IMG/VR virus record: IMGVR_UViG_3300035680_000027
Coordinates: 1-40,929 of that record
Direction: 5' to 3' (one strand)
Length of the DNA stretch: 40,929 nucleotides
DNA from: a virus
Position numbers and translations under genes: made by a program. The stretch's first letter is position 1, and each line of letters opens with the position of its first letter. Shown here piece after piece: positions 1 to 23,730 of this stretch. The notes beneath the pieces are model-generated. The model searched no databases, was not told the DNA's origin, and was given only the letters and a program-made list of their open reading frames with translations.

Positions 1-91
1 CTCGACGCCTCGACCTCGACCGGGGGCGCCCTCGACCTCGACCCGGGGCGACCTCGACGCCTCGACCGATCCCCCAGCCCTCGACCTCGAC
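1..91. repeat. CTCGAC hexamer array
   Basis: The hexamer CTCGAC occurs nine times in 91 bases, starting at 1, 9, 15, 31, 37, 53, 61, 80 and 86. Three pairs are directly abutted (9/15, 31/37, 80/86), and a 15-base unit combining two copies is repeated at 1-15 and 53-67. The tract is far more GC-rich than the rest of the window and lies immediately left of the DnaA-box cluster. No convincing gene runs through it. It could be a protein-binding array belonging to an origin, a partition or packaging site, or a poorly assembled contig end. The repeats are seen directly; any function is inference. Confidence 0.8.
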
Positions 92-132
92 GGGGCACAG
101 CGGGCTGCACAGCGGCCGCCCTCGGCGCCTTG

Positions 133-230
133 TTATCCACAGGGTTATCCACCGAACAGGTGTTCTGTGGATAAGTCTGTGGATAAGTTATCCACAGGTT
201 ATCCACAGGTTATCCACAGCCTGTGGATAA
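133..230. other. DnaA-box cluster, candidate replication origin
   Basis: Seven perfect copies of the DnaA box TTATCCACA are present: plus strand at 133-141, 188-196, 199-207 and 210-218, minus strand at 166-174, 178-186 and 222-230. An eighth site at 145-153 differs only in its last base. The three plus-strand boxes at 188, 199 and 210 are spaced exactly 11 bp, one helical turn, so they lie on one DNA face. A T-rich tract begins about 60 bp to the right, as expected for an unwinding region. No dnaA gene is visible, so the phage would recruit, or titrate, host DnaA. The boxes are certain; origin activity is inferred from the arrangement. Confidence 0.75.
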
Positions 231-284
231 CTCGCGAGCGGGCGGACGCCCAAGGCCGGTCAAACCCAATGGGATTGGAATTCT

Positions 285-470
285 TGGGCCTTTGATTTAT
301 TTTACCGCCGAAATTTTTTTTTGAAATTTGAAAAAGTTTTTTGGGGTGTTGAAGTTTTTTGTGTGAGGTTGCGATTTTTTTGTGTTGAGTTGTTGTGTGG
401 TTGTTTGTGTTGTGGTTTGTTTTGTTTGTGTTGGTTGTGCTTCTTGTGTATGGTGACCGTTGTTAGGTTC
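285..470. other. T- and G-rich, A/C-poor tract beside the DnaA boxes
   Basis: This non-coding stretch has long T runs (around 309-317, 336-341, 354-359 and 375-381), and from about 352 onward the plus strand is almost entirely T and G. Easily melted DNA next to clustered DnaA boxes is the usual layout of a bacterial DNA unwinding element. The strong strand asymmetry could also favour single-stranded or RNA-DNA hybrid structures. A long reading frame on the minus strand crosses it, but it is Thr/Lys/Asn/Pro-rich low-complexity sequence and is taken as a by-product of composition. Confidence 0.45.
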
Positions 471-498
471 TTTGTTGGGTTTGTATGGGAGGTTTGGC

Positions 499-960
499 AT
501 GGAAGATTTGAGCGTTTCTGATTTGGGTGTTGTTGTTGCCGATGATTGGCGACCGGAGTTGGGGTGTGCGAACACGGTGGCGTTGGTGGCTGGCGTTGTC
601 CAGTTTGAGTTGTGGACTTGGTTGTTGCCGGACACTTTGGAATCGGGTGGTGCGGTCACATTGCATGATGCTGGTTTTGGTGTTGACGATGTTCGTTCTC
701 AGTCTTTGCGTTGGTTTTGGGATCGTGGTGTTGAACTGGTTGAGCGTTGGGGTTTTGTGTTGGCTGATGTGTGCCGGAGTGGTGTGTCGCCTTGTCAGTT
801 GGGTTGGTTGGTGGTTGTGTTGCGTAATGGTGGGCGGGTTTCTGATTGGGGTTTTGGGGAGCCTTGTTGGGAAGGAATGTTGGCTGATGCTGTGACGGAC
901 GTTTTTGATGCGTCGTCGTGGAGTGTTGACGGGTCAGGTTTTTTGATGGTTGTGGTGTGA
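499..960 (+). CDS. hypothetical protein (153 aa)
   Basis: No family was recognised. ATG 499 is preferred over an earlier in-frame ATG at 460 because a good ribosome-binding site (GGGAGG, about 487-492) sits just upstream. The protein is acidic with many Trp and Val residues and reads as a soluble globular protein; no signal peptide or clear membrane segment is seen. The coding strand is extremely rich in G and T (codons such as GTT, TTG, GGT), continuing the skew of the preceding non-coding tract. It is the first gene right of the candidate origin and is separated by 119 bp from the gamma-glutamylcyclotransferase-like gene. Confidence 0.6.
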   Translation: MEDLSVSDLGVVVADDWRPELGCANTVALVAGVVQFELWTWLLPDTLESGGAVTLHDAGFGVDDVRSQSLRWFWDRGVELVERWGFVLADVCRSGVSPCQLGWLVVVLRNGGRVSDWGFGEPCWEGMLADAVTDVFDASSWSVDGSGFLMVVV

Positions 961-1079
961 CCTTTTTGGGGACCCCCCCTAATCTTTTTTTGGGTTTGGT
1001 ACCCCCCCCCTCCCCTTTGGGGAAGCGAACTTTGGGGGTGTTTTTTAGGAAGCGAACTGTCGGAAAGGACGGTGTTTTT
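961..1079. promoter_or_regulatory. intergenic region with homopolymer runs and an 11-bp direct repeat
   Basis: The gap holds a seven-T run (985-991), a nine-C run (1002-1010), a small perfect stem TCCCC-TTT-GGGGA (1011-1023) and the direct repeat GGAAGCGAACT at 1021-1031 and 1048-1058. The repeat lies 20-60 bp before the next start codon and could be an operator. No clear sigma-70 promoter was found. The GAAAGGAC sequence just before 1080 serves as ribosome-binding site for the next gene. Confidence 0.35.
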
Positions 1080-1481
1080 ATGGGTGAAGATTTTTGTGTG
1101 CCTTATGCGGTGTATGGGTCGTTGAGGCCGAACTGTGGGAATGATGGTTTGTGGCGCGGACGTGCGGAGGTTTGTGGTCGTTCCTTGAACTTGCCGGGGT
1201 TCAGGTTGGTTACCCGTCACGGGCTGGGGTTTCCGTTTGCGTTGCGGTCCGACGAAACCGATTCGATTTGGGTGGATTTGATTTACCCAAAGCCGGAGTT
1301 CGCGTTTGAGTTGCGGCGAGACTTGGACGTTTTGGAGGGCTACCCCGATTTTTATGACCGGACGATTGTACGGACAAAAGACTTTTCGGCGTGGTTGTAC
1401 CTGCCTTCGCAGCCTTGGCGTTACAGAGATTTGCTGCGGGTGCCTGATGGGGATTGGCGTCAATGGATAATTTCTTTTTGA
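1080..1481 (+). CDS. gamma-glutamylcyclotransferase-like protein (GGCT/AIG2 fold)
   Basis: The 133-residue product begins with a V-P-Y-A-V-Y-G-S-L-R segment (about residues 7-16), matching the YGSLR substrate-binding loop of the GGCT/AIG2 superfamily. It later has the family's LEGYP (about 91-95) and Y-D-R-T-I-V (about 98-103) elements. Enzymes of this fold cyclise gamma-glutamyl groups to release 5-oxoproline, from glutathione-like peptides or from gamma-glutamyl-amine adducts, in the cytoplasm. The catalytic acidic residue cannot be placed with certainty without alignment. ATG 1080 follows a GGAAAGGAC ribosome-binding site. Length is typical for the fold. The substrate in the phage is unknown; the family assignment rests on motifs read by eye. 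Confidence 0.72.
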   Translation: MGEDFCVPYAVYGSLRPNCGNDGLWRGRAEVCGRSLNLPGFRLVTRHGLGFPFALRSDETDSIWVDLIYPKPEFAFELRRDLDVLEGYPDFYDRTIVRTKDFSAWLYLPSQPWRYRDLLRVPDGDWRQWIISF

Positions 1482-1514
1482 AAGAGTTGCATTTGTTTAT
1501 AGGTATGGTAGGGT
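1478..1514 (+). promoter_or_regulatory. weak sigma-70-like promoter candidate
   Basis: TTGCAT (1487-1492) and TAGGGT (1509-1514) are separated by 16 bp, 44 bp before ATG 1558. The -10 match is poor and alternative alignments exist, so this is only a candidate for transcription of the small genes that follow. Confidence 0.22.
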
Positions 1515-1557
1515 GGTGGTCGTGGAAGAAACAGCAAGCAACCGAAAGGACAATCTC

Positions 1558-1752
1558 ATGGACGCTTACATCGTCGTAGGTCACAACATCAAGACCGACG
1601 AACCCGACTGGCAGGTTTTTACGGGGCGCAACGCTTTAGAGGGCGCAACCGTGATTGCGAAGCGATGGGCAGAACGCAAGGATTGGGTGGCGTTCGTTCG
1701 TCCGGTCGGGAACCCGGTAGTCATTGCTGACGCAGAAGGCGTCCGGGGCTAG
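1558..1752 (+). CDS. hypothetical small protein (64 aa)
   Basis: ATG 1558 follows a GAAAGGAC ribosome-binding site; the reading frame is open further upstream but without a comparable signal. No family was recognised. The product has a short beta-rich start (AYIVVGHN), a helix containing several Trp and Arg residues, and a C-terminal valine-rich segment. Its last eight codons and stop fall inside the first copy of an 88-bp direct repeat (1727-1814), so the same gene end is duplicated at 2091-2116 just before the ribbon-helix-helix gene. This suggests that this gene and the gene at 2159 were originally adjacent. Confidence 0.6.
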   Translation: MDAYIVVGHNIKTDEPDWQVFTGRNALEGATVIAKRWAERKDWVAFVRPVGNPVVIADAEGVRG

Positions 1753-2391: not shown

Positions 2392-3408
2392 ATGCCGCAC
2401 AATCTTGAACAGTACGGAGATGGAACATCTTTCGCTTACAACGGGGCCGAGAATCCTTGGCATCGGTTGGGTGTCAAGATGGATGGTTTGGCGACAGCGG
2501 AAGATATGTTGATTGCTTCTCGCGCCGACTACACGGTCACTTCTGAACCGTTGTATGTGATGACTGAAAGTGGGGCTGTTGAAGTTCCGGGTCGTCGGGC
2601 AACTGTCCGTAGCGTCGAAGCAGACGATGATCGTGATCCGTCGAGTTGTGTCCTTGGTGTTGTGGGCGAGTCCTACGGCATTGTTCAGAACCGTGACGTT
2701 TTGAATCGTGCGTTGGCGGTGGTTAGTGCAGACGGCAAAGCGGTCGTGGACACTTGTGGTGTTCTTGGTCATGGCGAACGGTTCTTTGCTTACATTGATT
2801 TGGGGCATTTGACTATTGACCCGAACGGCATTGACGACAAGGTGACCCGAGGGCTTGGTGTTCTTACTTCGCATGACGGCACCGCTGCGGTGACTTACGC
2901 CATGAGCAACATTCGGTGGGTTTGTCAGAACACCGTGACCGCAGGTTTGAACGCCGCTACACGCACATTCCGTGCCCGCCACACCACCAATGTTGAAACG
3001 ATGTTGGTGGACGCCCAGCGGGTACTCGGCTTGGCAGACAGTTGGGAGCAGCAGTTCGCTGATTTGGCTAATCGTTTGCTGCGAGTGAACGATGGTGCTT
3101 CACAGGGGCAGGGCCATGACCTGCTTAGTCGTGTTGAGTCGAAGTTGTGGCCGATGAACGACGAACCTTCTCGTCACGCCGAAACGATTGCTGAGACTCG
3201 CCGCATGGAACTTCATGCGCTGCTTGATTCAGATACTTGTGGCAAGAACTTCGGTTACAGCGGTTGGTCTGTTTACAACGCTCTTGTGGAGTATTCGGAT
3301 CATCTTCGTCCACGGCTTTCTGATGATCGCCGTGCCGAGGCAACGATTCTTGGTTTGACTGACGATTGGAAGAATAAGGCCGCCGATCTTGTTCTATCTG
3401 TTGGTTGA
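2392..3408 (+). CDS. DUF932 family phage/plasmid-like protein
   Basis: This 338-residue protein matches the DUF932 (TIGR03299-type) family of phage and plasmid proteins. It has an early A-E-N-P-W-H-R-L-G segment (about residues 20-28), a central V-V-G-E-S-Y-G-I-V-Q-N-R-D segment, a D-K-V-T-R-G-L-G-V-L-T-S-H-D-G segment and N-I-R-W-V-C-Q-N-T, all familiar from that family. Length is typical. The biochemical role is unknown; members lie in early or accessory regions of phages and plasmids. ATG 2392 has a strong GGAAGGAGGG ribosome-binding site overlapping the previous gene's end. A stable hairpin follows about 50 bp after the stop. Confidence 0.85.
   Translation: MPHNLEQYGDGTSFAYNGAENPWHRLGVKMDGLATAEDMLIASRADYTVTSEPLYVMTESGAVEVPGRRATVRSVEADDDRDPSSCVLGVVGESYGIVQNRDVLNRALAVVSADGKAVVDTCGVLGHGERFFAYIDLGHLTIDPNGIDDKVTRGLGVLTSHDGTAAVTYAMSNIRWVCQNTVTAGLNAATRTFRARHTTNVETMLVDAQRVLGLADSWEQQFADLANRLLRVNDGASQGQGHDLLSRVESKLWPMNDEPSRHAETIAETRRMELHALLDSDTCGKNFGYSGWSVYNALVEYSDHLRPRLSDDRRAEATILGLTDDWKNKAADLVLSVG

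Positions 3409-5174: not shown

Positions 5175-5178
<4 letters not shown>
4846..5178 (+). CDS. fibre adaptor / BppU-like N-terminal domain protein (110 aa)
   Basis: The sequence begins with a [10 protein letters not shown] signature (about residues 6-15), followed by [13 protein letters not shown]. This pattern is common in small beta-sandwich phage proteins related to the BppU N-terminal domain, which connect fibres to the tail or decorate virions. The whole protein is predominantly beta. It overlaps the collagen-like fibre gene by 4 bp, supporting a role in the same structure. GTG 4846 is selected by GAGG seven bases upstream. Structural assignment is by motif and context; the exact attachment point is unknown. 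Confidence 0.6.
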
Positions 5179-8377
<3,199 letters not shown>

Positions 8378-8381
<4 letters not shown>

Positions 8382-8611
8382 AACGCTTGGACATTGACGA
8401 AACGTGGGACGCCGACGGCAACCTTGTGTCTAGCGTTGAGGTGTGGCGTGACCCGTCACCGCTAGACCCGATCGGGGCGCTCGCCACCCTGCTCGCCGTT
8501 ACCGAAGTGGTGACTGTGCAGGACGCCGCTAACGCTGTTGGGTTGGAACCGCAAGCACTCATCGACGAGGCCGAAGCATGGGCCGAGTTCACTACCGACC
8601 CGGTGCCCTAG
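8378..8611 (+). CDS. hypothetical acidic protein downstream of the fibre (77 aa)
   Basis: ATG 8378 overlaps the fibre stop by 4 bp. The product is acidic and largely helical: an N-terminal segment with D-I-D-E-T-W-D, then an Ala/Leu/Val-rich helix and a possible helix-turn-helix-like pattern (about residues 45-65: [10 protein letters not shown]). No firm family assignment. Position suggests a fibre chaperone or accessory protein, but that is inference from coupling alone. A 71-bp gap with a -10-like element separates it from the portal gene. Confidence 0.55.
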
Positions 8612-13331: not shown

Positions 13332-13579
13332 TGGAAGATTGGGCTGTGGAAGCAATCAAAAACGCATTGCTTGATTCAACAATTGAACGTGCAGGATTAG
13401 GTAAAGGCACAACCGTTGTTGATAATGATTTGATTGCAAATGCGTTTGAAGTAGGTGCAGGTTTGGCGGCTGGATTTGTTGGCGGTGCAGCAGAATTCGA
13501 TGAGGAACAACTCGTTTCTGTCGCCGCACAATTGAAGGCTTTCCTTGATGCCTGCATTCAACGGGCAGAAATCCAATGA
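13331..13579 (+). CDS. hypothetical small helical protein (82 aa)
   Basis: ATG 13331 uses the last base of the ERF stop codon. The protein is acidic, helical and Ala/Gly-rich in the middle (G-A-G-L-A-A-G-F-V-G-G-A-A), which might be a short hydrophobic hairpin but is weak as a membrane segment. No family was recognised. It lies between ERF and the replication-organiser gene with 4-bp overlaps at the latter, so it is expressed with them. Confidence 0.55.
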   Translation: MEDWAVEAIKNALLDSTIERAGLGKGTTVVDNDLIANAFEVGAGLAAGFVGGAAEFDEEQLVSVAAQLKAFLDACIQRAEIQ

Positions 13580-14376
13580 GCGTTCAGGCGATTGCTTGGG
13601 TGTTGGCAAACTCTCGTTCGACAGGTGCGACTAGGTGCGTGCTTATCTCTGTTGCCAACCATGTGAATCCTGATGGAACTGGTTGGGTTTATGTGGAGCG
13701 GGTTTGCAAGGAAGCCAACTGTTCTATCAATTCGTACCATCGGGCTATCTCTTGGGCTGAAGAGAACGGTGAATTGACTCGGAACCAGTACGAGGGCGGA
13801 TTTGAGAGAACCCATTCTCGCCACCGCCCAAATTTGTATAGTTTCCCGGCATTGTGTCCTCCCCAAGATGGGGGGGAGGGTGGTACCCAAATTGGGGAGG
13901 AGGGTGGTACCCAAATTGGGGACCACAATAGTAAAGCCGTAAGTAAAGCCGTAAGTAAGCCAAACAAGAATGTCGTTGAGTTGGGTCAAATTGACGAACG
14001 TGAATCTGCCGAACGCATTTTGGCCGCTTGGGTTATCGCCACCGGTCGTGATGCTTTGCGAACTCGTTTGACGAAAGACAGGTTGGCTAAAATTCGTGCC
14101 CGGTTCGCAGAAGGTTTCAGCGAATTGGATTTGATTCATGCTGTGCAGGGTATTGCGCTTTCCGATTTCCATATGGGGAAAAACCCAAAAGGGCAGCGTT
14201 ACGATGATTTGACCATTGCTTTGCGGGACGGTTCTCAGGTGGAGAAGTTCAGGGATTTGTACGTTGACGGTCCCATCAAATCTCAACCAAAGGGGTTTGA
14301 TTCGATTGTGTCTGCGTTGAACAGGGTCGAAAGTGGCTCCTTGCCTTTGAAAGCGCTGGGCGATGGACGCCCGTGA
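13576..14376 (+). CDS. phage replication organiser (winged-helix N-terminus, DnaD-like C-terminus)
   Basis: The first about 90 residues form a winged-helix domain of the kind found in phage replication initiators (A-I-A-W-V-L-A-N-S..., then V-C-K-E-A-N-C-S-I-N-S-Y-H-R-A-I recognition region). A low-complexity linker follows (about 97-133), made of an eight-residue repeat (E-G-G-T-Q-I-G-E/D) and a short K-A-V-S repeat. The C-terminal half (about 140-266) is helical and resembles DnaD-like replisome organisers. Such proteins bind the phage origin and recruit the helicase loader, encoded next door at 14363. The linker DNA carries iterons (13876-13961), so the origin may lie inside the gene as in lambda O. 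ATG 13576 overlaps the prior gene by 4 bp. Confidence 0.68.
   Translation: MSVQAIAWVLANSRSTGATRCVLISVANHVNPDGTGWVYVERVCKEANCSINSYHRAISWAEENGELTRNQYEGGFERTHSRHRPNLYSFPALCPPQDGGEGGTQIGEEGGTQIGDHNSKAVSKAVSKPNKNVVELGQIDERESAERILAAWVIATGRDALRTRLTKDRLAKIRARFAEGFSELDLIHAVQGIALSDFHMGKNPKGQRYDDLTIALRDGSQVEKFRDLYVDGPIKSQPKGFDSIVSALNRVESGSLPLKALGDGRP
13876..13961. repeat. iteron-like repeats inside the replication gene, candidate origin
   Basis: A 23-bp unit is perfectly repeated at 13876-13898 and 13900-13922 (period 24 bp); each contains the palindrome GGTACC and the near-palindrome CCCAAATTGGG. Directly after, the 12-base unit AGTAAAGCCGTA occurs at 13930-13941 and 13942-13953, with a partial third copy at 13954-13961. 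Repeats of this type within the linker-coding part of an initiator gene are the hallmark of lambda-O-like origins. The repeats are seen; origin function is inferred. Confidence 0.7.
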
Positions 14377-14776
14377 AACAGCGGAAGTGCTGGCTTATTT
14401 GTCAGCCGCTTATCCAAGGACTGATTTACATGAAGAAACTGTTTTGGTTTGGATTGATCAGTTTGGTAACGCCGATTATGAGTTGGCGGTACGAGTTGCT
14501 AAACGAATCGTTGCGTCGGACGAATGGTTCCCTACGGTTGCCCGGTTCAGAGAAGTCTTAGGAATCGAGTTGAGGCGGTCGTCGGTTTCTAGGGAATGCG
14601 GCGATTGCGAGAATGGTTTCATTGTTATGGCAAACGGCGACGTTACTTTCTGTCGTGTTTGCCGACCGGACGCCCCACAAGAGGCTTTAGGGCCTTCTGC
14701 GGCGGCGATGCGATCTGCTGACTGGCGGCGATGGGTTGACCAGTCACGGAAAGAGTTGGACAAACCGTTCAACTGA
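14363..14776 (+). CDS. G39P-like helicase loader with C-terminal zinc-finger motif
   Basis: The N-terminal about 70 residues (E-T-A-E-V-L-A-Y-L-S-A-A-Y-P, then V-W-I-D-Q-F-G-N-A-D-Y-E-L-A and D-E-W-F-P-T-V-A-R-F) match the pattern of the loader/inhibitor of G40P family, small helical proteins that deliver the replicative helicase to an initiator-bound origin. The second half has C-G-D-C (about 79-82) and C-R-V-C (about 98-101), a likely zinc ribbon not found in the short classical loaders. The gene overlaps the replication organiser by 14 bp, reinforcing the pairing. No helicase gene is visible here, so it may load the host DnaB. Assignment is by motif and context. Confidence 0.65.
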   Translation: MDARETAEVLAYLSAAYPRTDLHEETVLVWIDQFGNADYELAVRVAKRIVASDEWFPTVARFREVLGIELRRSSVSRECGDCENGFIVMANGDVTFCRVCRPDAPQEALGPSAAAMRSADWRRWVDQSRKELDKPFN

Positions 14777-15868: not shown

Positions 15869-16363
15869 ATGTGGCTCAGATTCAAGGAATGGCGACGAAG
15901 GTCGGAATTGGCGAAAATAAAACGCCTTCAAAACGAAATTGTTGAAACACGCAGAAAGAATTCTGTTCTAAACGAACTTGTTGAGTCTTTGAGCATGGAT
16001 TTGGAACTGCTTGAAGAAATGTGCGGGGAAATTATTGTTCAAGATGCCGAGAACATTCTTCTTATTGGAGACAGCCCCGAACGGACACAAGAAGGAGAGG
16101 CGCAAGCCGAACGCGATTTGACGGACGCGTTTTCAGCAATCTTGTTTTGTTCCGATGAAGTAAAAGAGCAAGAACTTCGTTCAGCGGGAATTGTGCTAGG
16201 CGGGCATTGCGCCGATAGTTACCTTTGTCCTATGGCGACAAGCATCGCCCTTTTTCGTCTTGCGTCAATTGATTCCGACCTTGCCCCGGAATTAGCCACC
16301 GAAATAATTGTTTTTGCGATGCGAGAAGGGATCGCTCAGCGGTTTCAGGAGCGCACCCAATAA
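15869..16363 (+). CDS. hypothetical protein with N-terminal coiled coil (164 aa)
   Basis: ATG 15869 is preferred; a TTG two codons earlier overlaps the prior stop. Residues about 10-50 are strongly helical and charged with regular Leu/Ile spacing, a likely coiled coil. The C-terminal half has an Ala/Leu-rich region with three cysteines. No family was recognised. It ends 1 bp into the WhiB start codon, so the two are co-translated. Confidence 0.55.
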   Translation: MWLRFKEWRRRSELAKIKRLQNEIVETRRKNSVLNELVESLSMDLELLEEMCGEIIVQDAENILLIGDSPERTQEGEAQAERDLTDAFSAILFCSDEVKEQELRSAGIVLGGHCADSYLCPMATSIALFRLASIDSDLAPELATEIIVFAMREGIAQRFQERTQ

Positions 16364-16692
16364 TGATGGGTGATTGGCGGGAAGAAGCGGCTTGCAGGGG
16401 CATGGACCCTGAGTTGTGGTTCCCGATGGAGTATTCGCAAGATCACGATACCGAGATGACAAGAATTTGTATAGAAGTCTGTCCAGTCCAAGAACAATGT
16501 TTGGAAGCAGCATTGGAAAACGTGGAGAAGCGTGGCATTTGGGGTGGTTTTACCCAAGCAGAATTGAAAGGCATTCGCACGAAACGTTTTTCTCGTTGCA
16601 AGAAATGTGGTCGCCGGTGGCCGAAAGCACGGTTGACCAGCCATACCACTTGCCGACCTTGCAGAATTGAGGAATACGATGCACGAAACTGA
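16363..16692 (+). CDS. WhiB-family Fe-S transcription factor with unusual cysteine spacing
   Basis: WhiB proteins bind a [4Fe-4S] cluster through four cysteines and regulate transcription with the principal sigma factor in Actinobacteria. Here the first cysteine is C11 (A-A-C-R-G), followed by C36, C40 and C46, and the signature G-I-W-G-G turn lies at 58-62. The usual spacing is C-x2-C-x5-C; this copy has C-x3-C-x5-C, one residue too many. Two further C-x2-C pairs near the C-terminus (C-K-K-C, C-R-P-C) suggest an added zinc ribbon instead of the usual basic tail. Such phage copies can displace host WhiB proteins. ATG 16363 overlaps the preceding stop; a second ATG follows at 16366. Confidence 0.88.
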   Translation: MMGDWREEAACRGMDPELWFPMEYSQDHDTEMTRICIEVCPVQEQCLEAALENVEKRGIWGGFTQAELKGIRTKRFSRCKKCGRRWPKARLTSHTTCRPCRIEEYDARN

Positions 16693-22308: not shown

Positions 22309-23345
22309 CCAAAATCAACGCATACGCAGCGTGGTCGCATTACGCCGATCACATCGCTCCTATTTGGGATCGGTTGGACAATGAACACAAAGGCCAGTTT
22401 GTTGTCCCGTCCCAAACCATCAAAAACCATTTAGCGAATTGGGGCATCGAAGCAACACTAAGTCGCTCAAACGGTCAGACCGCACTCGCCTTACGCAATA
22501 ACGAACCGATGATCGTTGCCGGGTATTCGGACCTAGTAAAAATGAGCAAAAGGCCAATCATTTTTGTTGAACACGGGGCAGGACAAACTTACGTTCGTGA
22601 GGACGGATCTATTCATGGCGGCTATTCCGGTGGCAGGAACCGAAACAAAGTTGGTTTGTTTATCTGCCCTAACAACGAAGTGGCTAAAAGAAACCTTGAC
22701 GCCTATCCGTCTAGTTCTGTGGCGGTTGTTGGCTCACCGCGCTTAGATGATCTTTTTGTGAATCGCAGAGTCAAAAAGGGGTTCAAGACACCGACTATTG
22801 GCGTGTCTTTCCATTGGGACTGCCAAATAACGCCGGAAAGCGGTTCGGCCTTTGGGGAATTCTCTGATCAAATGAAAGATTTTCTGCACTACTCGCGAGT
22901 GTGCGGTTATGACGTTGTTGGGCACGGCCATCCGAAGGCTTGGAACTATCTGTTTCCATACTGGCTGGACCAAAAAGTTGACGTTGTAAAAGAATGGGAT
23001 CAGGTCGTCAAACGAATTGACGTTTTGTTTATAGATAACAGTTCAATCATTTTTGAAGCAGCGGCTCTAGACATTCCCGTTGTCTTGATGGAGTCAGCAA
23101 AATGGCGCAAAGGGGTTTCACACGGTTTGCGCTTTTGGGATTACGCAGATGTTGGGCCGGTTGTGCGACCAAACGAATCTTTGGCAGAAGGGTTGGCGAA
23201 AGCGTTTGATCCAATTTATGCGGAGCGGCGCAGAGAGGTTGCCCGGTCCGTGTATGCTATCCAACCGGACTCGGGGCATCTCTCTAGTCGAAGTGCAGCA
23301 TTAGCGATATTGGAATGGGTGAAGGAGCAAGGAATTGACGGATGA
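22305..23345 (+). CDS. CDP-glycerol glycerophosphotransferase-like GT-B protein
   Basis: The 346-residue protein has an early V-E-H-G-A-G-Q-T (about 88-95) and a later V-V-G-S-P-R-L-D-D-L (about 143-152). These are followed by V-V-G-H-G-H-P (about 205-211) and D-V-L-F-I-D-N-S-S-I-I-F-E-A-A-A-L-D-I-P-V-V-L-M (about 241-264), the arrangement seen in the TagB/TagF-like CDP-glycerol glycerophosphotransferases that build wall teichoic acid. It may add glycerol phosphate or another activated group to a polymer or glycan. ATG 22305 overlaps the methyltransferase stop by 4 bp. No membrane segment is evident. Exact donor and acceptor cannot be read from sequence. Confidence 0.68.
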   Translation: MTKINAYAAWSHYADHIAPIWDRLDNEHKGQFVVPSQTIKNHLANWGIEATLSRSNGQTALALRNNEPMIVAGYSDLVKMSKRPIIFVEHGAGQTYVREDGSIHGGYSGGRNRNKVGLFICPNNEVAKRNLDAYPSSSVAVVGSPRLDDLFVNRRVKKGFKTPTIGVSFHWDCQITPESGSAFGEFSDQMKDFLHYSRVCGYDVVGHGHPKAWNYLFPYWLDQKVDVVKEWDQVVKRIDVLFIDNSSIIFEAAALDIPVVLMESAKWRKGVSHGLRFWDYADVGPVVRPNESLAEGLAKAFDPIYAERRREVARSVYAIQPDSGHLSSRSAALAILEWVKEQGIDG

Positions 23346-23730
23346 TTGTGGAACGATGCGCGGCTACCGAACGGGTTGTCGGTGCGCCCGTTGCAAAAGA
23401 GCAAACGCAGACAATGTGAAGGAATACCGGGAACGCCAGCGTTCTGCGCTGACAACCGTGGCTCACAACCTTCTTGGATACAGGGAGGGTGACACTTCTT
23501 GGGTGTCTAAAGCGGCTTGCCGGGACAAAGACACATCAATGTTTTTTCCGGGCAGAGGCGACTCCCAAAGCATGAACAGGGCGCGCAAAATCTGCGCTGA
23601 ATGTCCCGTAACCGACGACTGTTTGGCTTACGCCCTAAGAACAGATCAAGAGTTCGGTGTATGGGGCGGCAAGTCAATCAGGGAGCGGGAAGCGATGCGG
23701 GCCGTGTGGAGGCGAAGCAGTTATGTCTAG
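23335..23730 (+). CDS. WhiB-family regulator fused to an N-terminal cysteine module
   Basis: Residues about 59-131 form a WhiB domain: A-A-C-R-D, then I-C-A-E-C-P-V-T-D-D-C with the standard C-x2-C-x5-C spacing, and G-V-W-G-G. Residues about 1-37 carry G-Y-R-T-G-C-R-C-A-R-C-K-R-A-N, a small zinc-binding-type motif that occurs as a stand-alone protein in other actinophages. TTG 23335 is chosen because AAGGAG lies eight bases upstream; an in-frame ATG at 23356 would remove the first seven residues. Expected role: Fe-S-dependent transcription control of phage or host genes. It overlaps both neighbours and is thus transcribed with the glycan cassette. Confidence 0.87.
   Translation: MTDDCGTMRGYRTGCRCARCKRANADNVKEYRERQRSALTTVAHNLLGYREGDTSWVSKAACRDKDTSMFFPGRGDSQSMNRARKICAECPVTDDCLAYALRTDQEFGVWGGKSIREREAMRAVWRRSSYV

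Follow-up and report, generated by a model that had tools for sequence, protein, structure and literature searches.

Is a dense, bacterial-type array of DnaA boxes on a phage genome an origin at which host DnaA starts phage replication, or does it act on the host by drawing DnaA away? The question is raised by positions 133 to 230 of a 40,929-bp stretch of viral DNA (the window), which is the entire IMG/VR record IMGVR_UViG_3300035680_000027. A sequence-only reading had proposed both functions and had regarded such arrays as seldom found in phages. Here, the array and its surroundings were compared with related contigs, other phages and cellular genomes.

The DnaA-box array and its control region

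The array comprises seven exact copies of the DnaA box TTATCCACA and one near match (TTATCCACC) within 98 bp (Table 1). The box count given by the sequence-only reading was therefore reproduced and exact positions were located, and the three boxes that it had placed at 11-bp spacing are boxes 5, 6 and 7, which are direct repeats starting at 188, 199 and 210. The remainder of the 40,929-bp window contains no exact TTATCCACA, and about 0.26 exact copies would be expected by chance in the whole of it, against the 7 observed. With up to one mismatch allowed, the window holds 14 boxes; shuffled sequences averaged 6.8, and 14 was reached in none of 100. A further element, which had been missed, is the large palindrome formed by boxes 1 to 4 (133-186), centred on GAACAGGTGTTC (154-165).

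Table 1. Coordinates of the array, its control region and other features of the window
Position	Feature	Strand	Remarks
1..131	GC-rich low-complexity flank		CCTCGACCTCGACC repeats; unanchored to other phage sequence
133..141	DnaA box 1	+	TTATCCACA, exact
133..186	26-nt inverted repeat (88%)		Boxes 1-4 flanking LexA-type core; predicted hairpin when single-stranded
145..153	DnaA box 2	+	TTATCCACC, one mismatch
154..165	LexA-type palindrome core GAACAGGTGTTC		GAAC-N4-GTTC; abuts boxes 2 and 3; single copy in window
166..174	DnaA box 3	-	Exact
178..186	DnaA box 4	-	Exact
188..196	DnaA box 5	+	Exact
199..207	DnaA box 6	+	Exact; 11 bp from box 5
210..218	DnaA box 7	+	Exact; 11 bp from box 6
222..230	DnaA box 8	-	Exact; inverted
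266..290	CCAATGGG block	+	Common to two G002 control regions
310..470	T-rich tract	+	Found in both G002 control regions too
499..960	First rightward gene past array	+	ATG at 499 after GGGAGG; no family assigned
1080..1481	Gamma-glutamyl-cyclotransferase-like gene	+	49% identity to G002 counterpart
2392..3408	DUF932 gene	+	83% identity to G002 counterpart; synteny anchor
13576..14376	O-like replication initiator gene	+	Points to separate phage origin
13862..13958	24-bp and 12-bp tandem repeats	+	Within O-like initiator gene
14363..14776	G39P-type helicase loader gene (PF11417)	+	
16363..16692	WhiB-like gene	+	Host clue: actinobacteria
23335..23730	WhiB-like gene, second copy	+	

Two gene blocks diverge from the non-coding control region that houses the array, and the minimum of the window's cumulative GC skew falls within the array. 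The T-rich tract, which had been described as adjoining the boxes, begins near 310, about 80 bp beyond box 8, with a GC-rich stretch between. Both ends of the array are flanked by GC-rich sequence and no DnaA-trio was seen there by eye; nor was a sigma-70-like promoter recognised in window 1-1700. Further to the right, at 963-1031, the window has one copy of an intergenic repeat element (ACCCCCCCTAATNTTTTTT ... GGGGAAGCGAAC), of which the related contig G002 has two (42,566 and 47,960), with 82-84% identity. Two small neighbouring genes share a near-identical leader and start (GTTGTCACAGCAAGCAAGTACCATCAAAACAGGAGG...; 1753-1810 and 2117-2180), resembling a recent duplication.

The window is tailed-phage DNA, carrying genes for portal, terminase, major capsid, tape measure and amidase, and its genome is incomplete, as the capsid gene is cut by the right contig end. 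The two WhiB genes indicate an actinobacterial host, so that the phage is probably an actinophage. As the sequence-only reading had noted, no DnaA homologue is visible in this incomplete genome, and no integrase or lysogeny genes were found in the window.

Related contigs

Contig G001 is the same phage, with 100% identity over the parts compared (window 6373-8600 and the portal protein), and stops short of the array region. Contig G002 (52,135 bp) has about 70-88% DNA identity to the window in matching blocks and is the only relative that spans the syntenic site. Conservation of the boxes in relatives had been named as a check on the sequence-only reading, their absence counting against it; the syntenic site of G002 has neither DnaA boxes nor GAACN4GTTC. 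The GC-skew minimum of G002 is at this syntenic gap, and its homologue of the O-like initiator gene carries a similar 12-bp repeat.

A second control region of G002 (41,760-42,000; L126 8262-8500) contains one GAACATATGTTC and three perfect LexA-type CGAACACCCGTTCG boxes. These are located about 50 bp upstream of the CCAATGGG block and the T-rich tract, which is the slot taken by the DnaA boxes in the window.

Searches for other relatives returned none through the first rightward gene, only G002 through the DUF932 gene and no close relative besides G002 through the cyclotransferase gene. Named phages gave no DNA match to the left end of the window, and comparison of the window proteins with all array loci gave just distant portal relatives (L053 and L023). 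Tandem repeats are numerous in the collagen-like tail fibre gene at window 5175-8381, and the contigs of all four relatives start or stop in or near this gene, so that assembly is fragile there.

DnaA-box arrays in other phages

The view that phages seldom carry such arrays proved to be wrong. The exact 31-bp triple TTATCCACAGGTTATCCACAGGTTATCCACA was found in 105 viral stretches and in 44 stretches of cellular genomes (257 billion bases searched). These are raw counts and give no fold enrichment, as no total size in bases is stated for the viral collection. Two of the viral families are large, with 33 and 22 contigs, and there are many smaller families besides. A dnaA gene was detected near the triple at 20 of the 44 bacterial loci and at none of the 105 viral loci, and a profile search found dnaA in none of 44 whole viral records. 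The genes neighbouring the viral arrays include terminase, portal and primase.

The array is inside a non-coding gap in 14 of 15 long contigs, and inside the largest gap in 6 of them. There is a weak trend towards an AT-rich flank in these gaps (mean percentile 0.72). Box number, order and orientation differ among the phages, most of which have mainly direct repeats, while the box itself stays perfect.

Clusters are also present in isolated phages. The T7-like Escherichia phage P483 has 5 exact and 3 near boxes (L288 1942-2067), the Streptomyces phages Faust and BillNye have 3-4 exact boxes, and Lactococcus phiL47 has 4. Microvirus mar31, a 5.2-kb single-stranded DNA phage, has 11 consecutive TTTTCCACA in 11-bp steps (L289 2505-2623). 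The boxes of P483 sit in its early region, in a 1.5-kb gap beside a SAM hydrolase gene.

LexA-type elements beside DnaA boxes

The palindrome core in the array resembles LexA boxes, which are tCGAAC-N4-GNNCGa in Streptomyces venezuelae (PMC9380542) and CGAACN4GTTCG in Bacillus (PMC4551915). The full CGAAC-N4-GTTCG is present in G002 and L064, and the window has CGAAC-AGGT-GTTCT, with an imperfect right flank. By chance, 0.6 copies of GAACN4GTTC would be expected in the window and about 0.0015 in the array. Since any such palindrome centre yields some word of the form ABCD-N4-complement, a fairer probability for GAAC at this place is about 1/256.

GAACN4GTTC followed within 0-30 bp by two DnaA boxes at 11-bp spacing was found in 18 other viral contigs from six unrelated families, and in none of 397 actinobacterial genomes. 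Extra copies of GAACN4GTTC, beyond those in the search pattern, lie no more than 300 bp away in four of the six families. The evidence for enrichment of these composites comes from the extra copies and from two contigs first picked by DnaA boxes alone, the window and L064. In L064/L026, the DnaA triple comes after three perfect LexA-type boxes and is itself followed by an inverted box and a T-rich tract.

WhiB genes are found in two of the six composite families and in G002, and in none of the 44 triple-array records, a distribution that agrees with the type of LexA box used by actinobacteria; DnaA and LexA-type boxes occur together in actinophage-like contigs. For most triple arrays there is no indication of an actinobacterial host, as WhiB is missing from all 44 records. 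The LexA-type core was rejected as a general feature of DnaA arrays, being near the triple in only one family (L026/L064) among the 105 loci. No tyrosine integrase was found in 17 records, the window among them, so prophage induction is not an obvious reason for the LexA sites.

Discussion

The explanation that we tentatively favour, at somewhat less than even confidence, is that the array captures host DnaA, and possibly LexA, with possible local regulation in addition. Host DnaA is predicted to bind the mostly perfect, high-affinity boxes in the main non-coding control region. As phage copies multiply, DnaA, and perhaps LexA, would be drawn from oriC and from host promoters, which would delay host initiation and relieve genes repressed by DnaA or LexA, to the possible benefit of the phage; adjacent phage promoters may also be affected locally. 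In E. coli, DnaA boxes carried on plasmids titrate DnaA and increase the initiation mass (PMC5835720).

Capture is supported by the density of the array, with seven of eight boxes perfect, by the viral triples, beside which no dnaA was detected, by the LexA-type core within the array and by the composites in 18 viral contigs. The free variation in number, order and orientation of an otherwise perfect box fits binding capacity better than the fixed geometry of an orisome or a promoter. That the phage encodes an O-like initiator, with repeats in the gene, and a helicase loader is a further reason to prefer the capture of host DnaA to an essential origin of the oriC type. Against capture, eight boxes per genome matter only at many copies, a pure sink has no need of a control region or a skew minimum, and the G002 syntenic site has no boxes. 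For LexA in particular, the window has just one core, its right flank is imperfect and it could have arisen at the palindrome centre by the chance estimated above.

Another, somewhat unlikely possibility is that the array acts as an operator, where bound host DnaA and LexA time the flanking phage promoters and tie early genes to the replication or DNA-damage state of the host. Two control regions of G002 repeat the layout of slot, CCAATGGG block, T-rich tract and rightward gene, and one of them has four GAACN4GTTC in the place of the array. There are precedents in phage GIL01, which LexA represses via such a box (PMC4551915), and in E. coli uvrB, which is regulated by both DnaA and LexA (PMC6015884). 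However, no promoter of the sigma-70 type was recognised in window 1-1700, about 270 bp separate the last box from the gene start at 499, and no integrase or lysogeny genes were found.

It is unlikely that host DnaA fires a phage origin, main or auxiliary, at the array, with unwinding in the T-rich tract. The position of the array at the skew minimum and gene divergence of the window, and of the minimum at the syntenic gap of G002, would fit an origin. In 15 other contigs, too, the arrays are close to the skew minimum (KS p = 0.0004), mostly in large non-coding gaps. This pooled signal was at first taken as support for an origin and was lost once gene orientation had been modelled (mean percentile 0.50), although the window itself stays high (0.97). 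As to the hallmarks of an oriC, there is a DnaA-box cluster; dnaA and dnaN are not beside it in this incomplete contig, a DnaA-trio was not seen, and the putative AT-rich unwinding region, the T-rich tract from about 310, is 80 bp distant. An O-like initiator with repeats in its gene and a helicase loader are encoded by the phage itself, and arrays are present in a T7-like phage and in microviruses; to our knowledge, T7-like phages and microviruses do not initiate replication at oriC-type sites. The sequence-only reading was right that a dense array, most likely phage-borne, is present without a phage dnaA. Of its two proposals, origin and decoy, we lean to the decoy because of the null corrected skew, the phage's own initiator and loader, the G002 site without boxes and the arrays in a T7-like phage and in microviruses, and we add to it a LexA-type element that this reading had not noticed.

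An assembly chimera, in which the first 230-260 bp of the contig derive from the oriC of a host or from a different element, could account for an array just 132 bp from the contig end, for the lack of a phage match in window 1-131 and for the box-less syntenic site in G002. However, sequence homologous to both G002 control regions begins again about 35 bp past the array, and the phage skew minimum is within the array. The arrangement of boxes 5-8 is absent from the genomes of 84,980 species of bacteria and archaea, and a single actinobacterium has the exact triple; actinobacterial oriCs are packed otherwise, none of those fetched having the packing of the window. In addition, a comparable module, made up of LexA-type core, DnaA triple, inverted box and T-rich tract, is located deep inside the unrelated phage contig L064. 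Contamination by host oriC, the outcome that the sequence-only reading had said would overturn it, was therefore judged improbable, and the array is most likely phage-borne.

Least probable of all is a single-strand initiation signal, with hairpins of the inverted boxes on single-stranded phage DNA at which DnaA would start a primosome. The predicted fold of 130-233 has two hairpins with paired boxes (z = -9.4), and the box hairpin of a microvirus is stronger still, but such a fold is an automatic outcome of inverted boxes, and direct repeats predominate in most array phages.

Clusters of DnaA boxes on phages and the titration of DnaA are known kinds of system, and the array shares features with several of them. 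Like an actinobacterial oriC, it has many clustered TTATCCACA copies in both orientations; unlike it, the array has 8 boxes in 98 bp and no dnaA, where the oriC has about 15-20 boxes over a few hundred bp with dnaA adjacent, and it contains a central LexA-type core in an arrangement absent from cellular genomes. Iteron origins of the P1 oriR type, on phages and plasmids, have DnaA boxes on a replicon without its own dnaA. The window has this in common with them, whereas its initiator gene and repeats (13.6-14.4 kb) are away from the boxes, at a distance of 13.6 kb.

The several DnaA boxes at 133-230 are shared with datA and other DnaA-titrating loci of E. coli, which are not the origin and would lower free DnaA, as the array may (PMC5835720). 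However, datA has two consensus boxes and IHF-dependent hydrolysis of DnaA-ATP, and the array is on a phage and has more perfect boxes. The LexA-controlled promoter of GIL01 shares GAACN4GTTC in a phage control region, although in the window the site is embedded in a DnaA array, its right flank is imperfect and there is no sign of lysogeny genes (PMC4551915). The regulatory region of uvrB combines DnaA and LexA sites, as does the window, but belongs to a chromosomal gene and is not a dense phage array (PMC6015884). In the literature searched, which left most subscription journals outside, we found no survey of DnaA-box arrays in phages, and no description of a dense array recurring in many phages or of its combination with LexA-type sites in actinophages.

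A wider form of the preferred explanation, capture, is possible, if doubtful in its full extent. Actinophages may carry composite cis-elements, with DnaA and LexA boxes in a control region, that capture the master regulators of replication and of the SOS response and so act as a DNA-encoded anti-host device, DnaA-only versions of which would be spread across unrelated phages, including T7-like ones.

If phages absorb or read host DnaA and LexA with plain DNA, host replication would be influenced without any protein, and this strategy, if true, is one that gene-centred annotation overlooks. The 105 triple stretches and the 18 contigs with DnaA and LexA-type boxes provide specific sequences on which this can be tested, including those of the isolated phages P483, Faust and BillNye.
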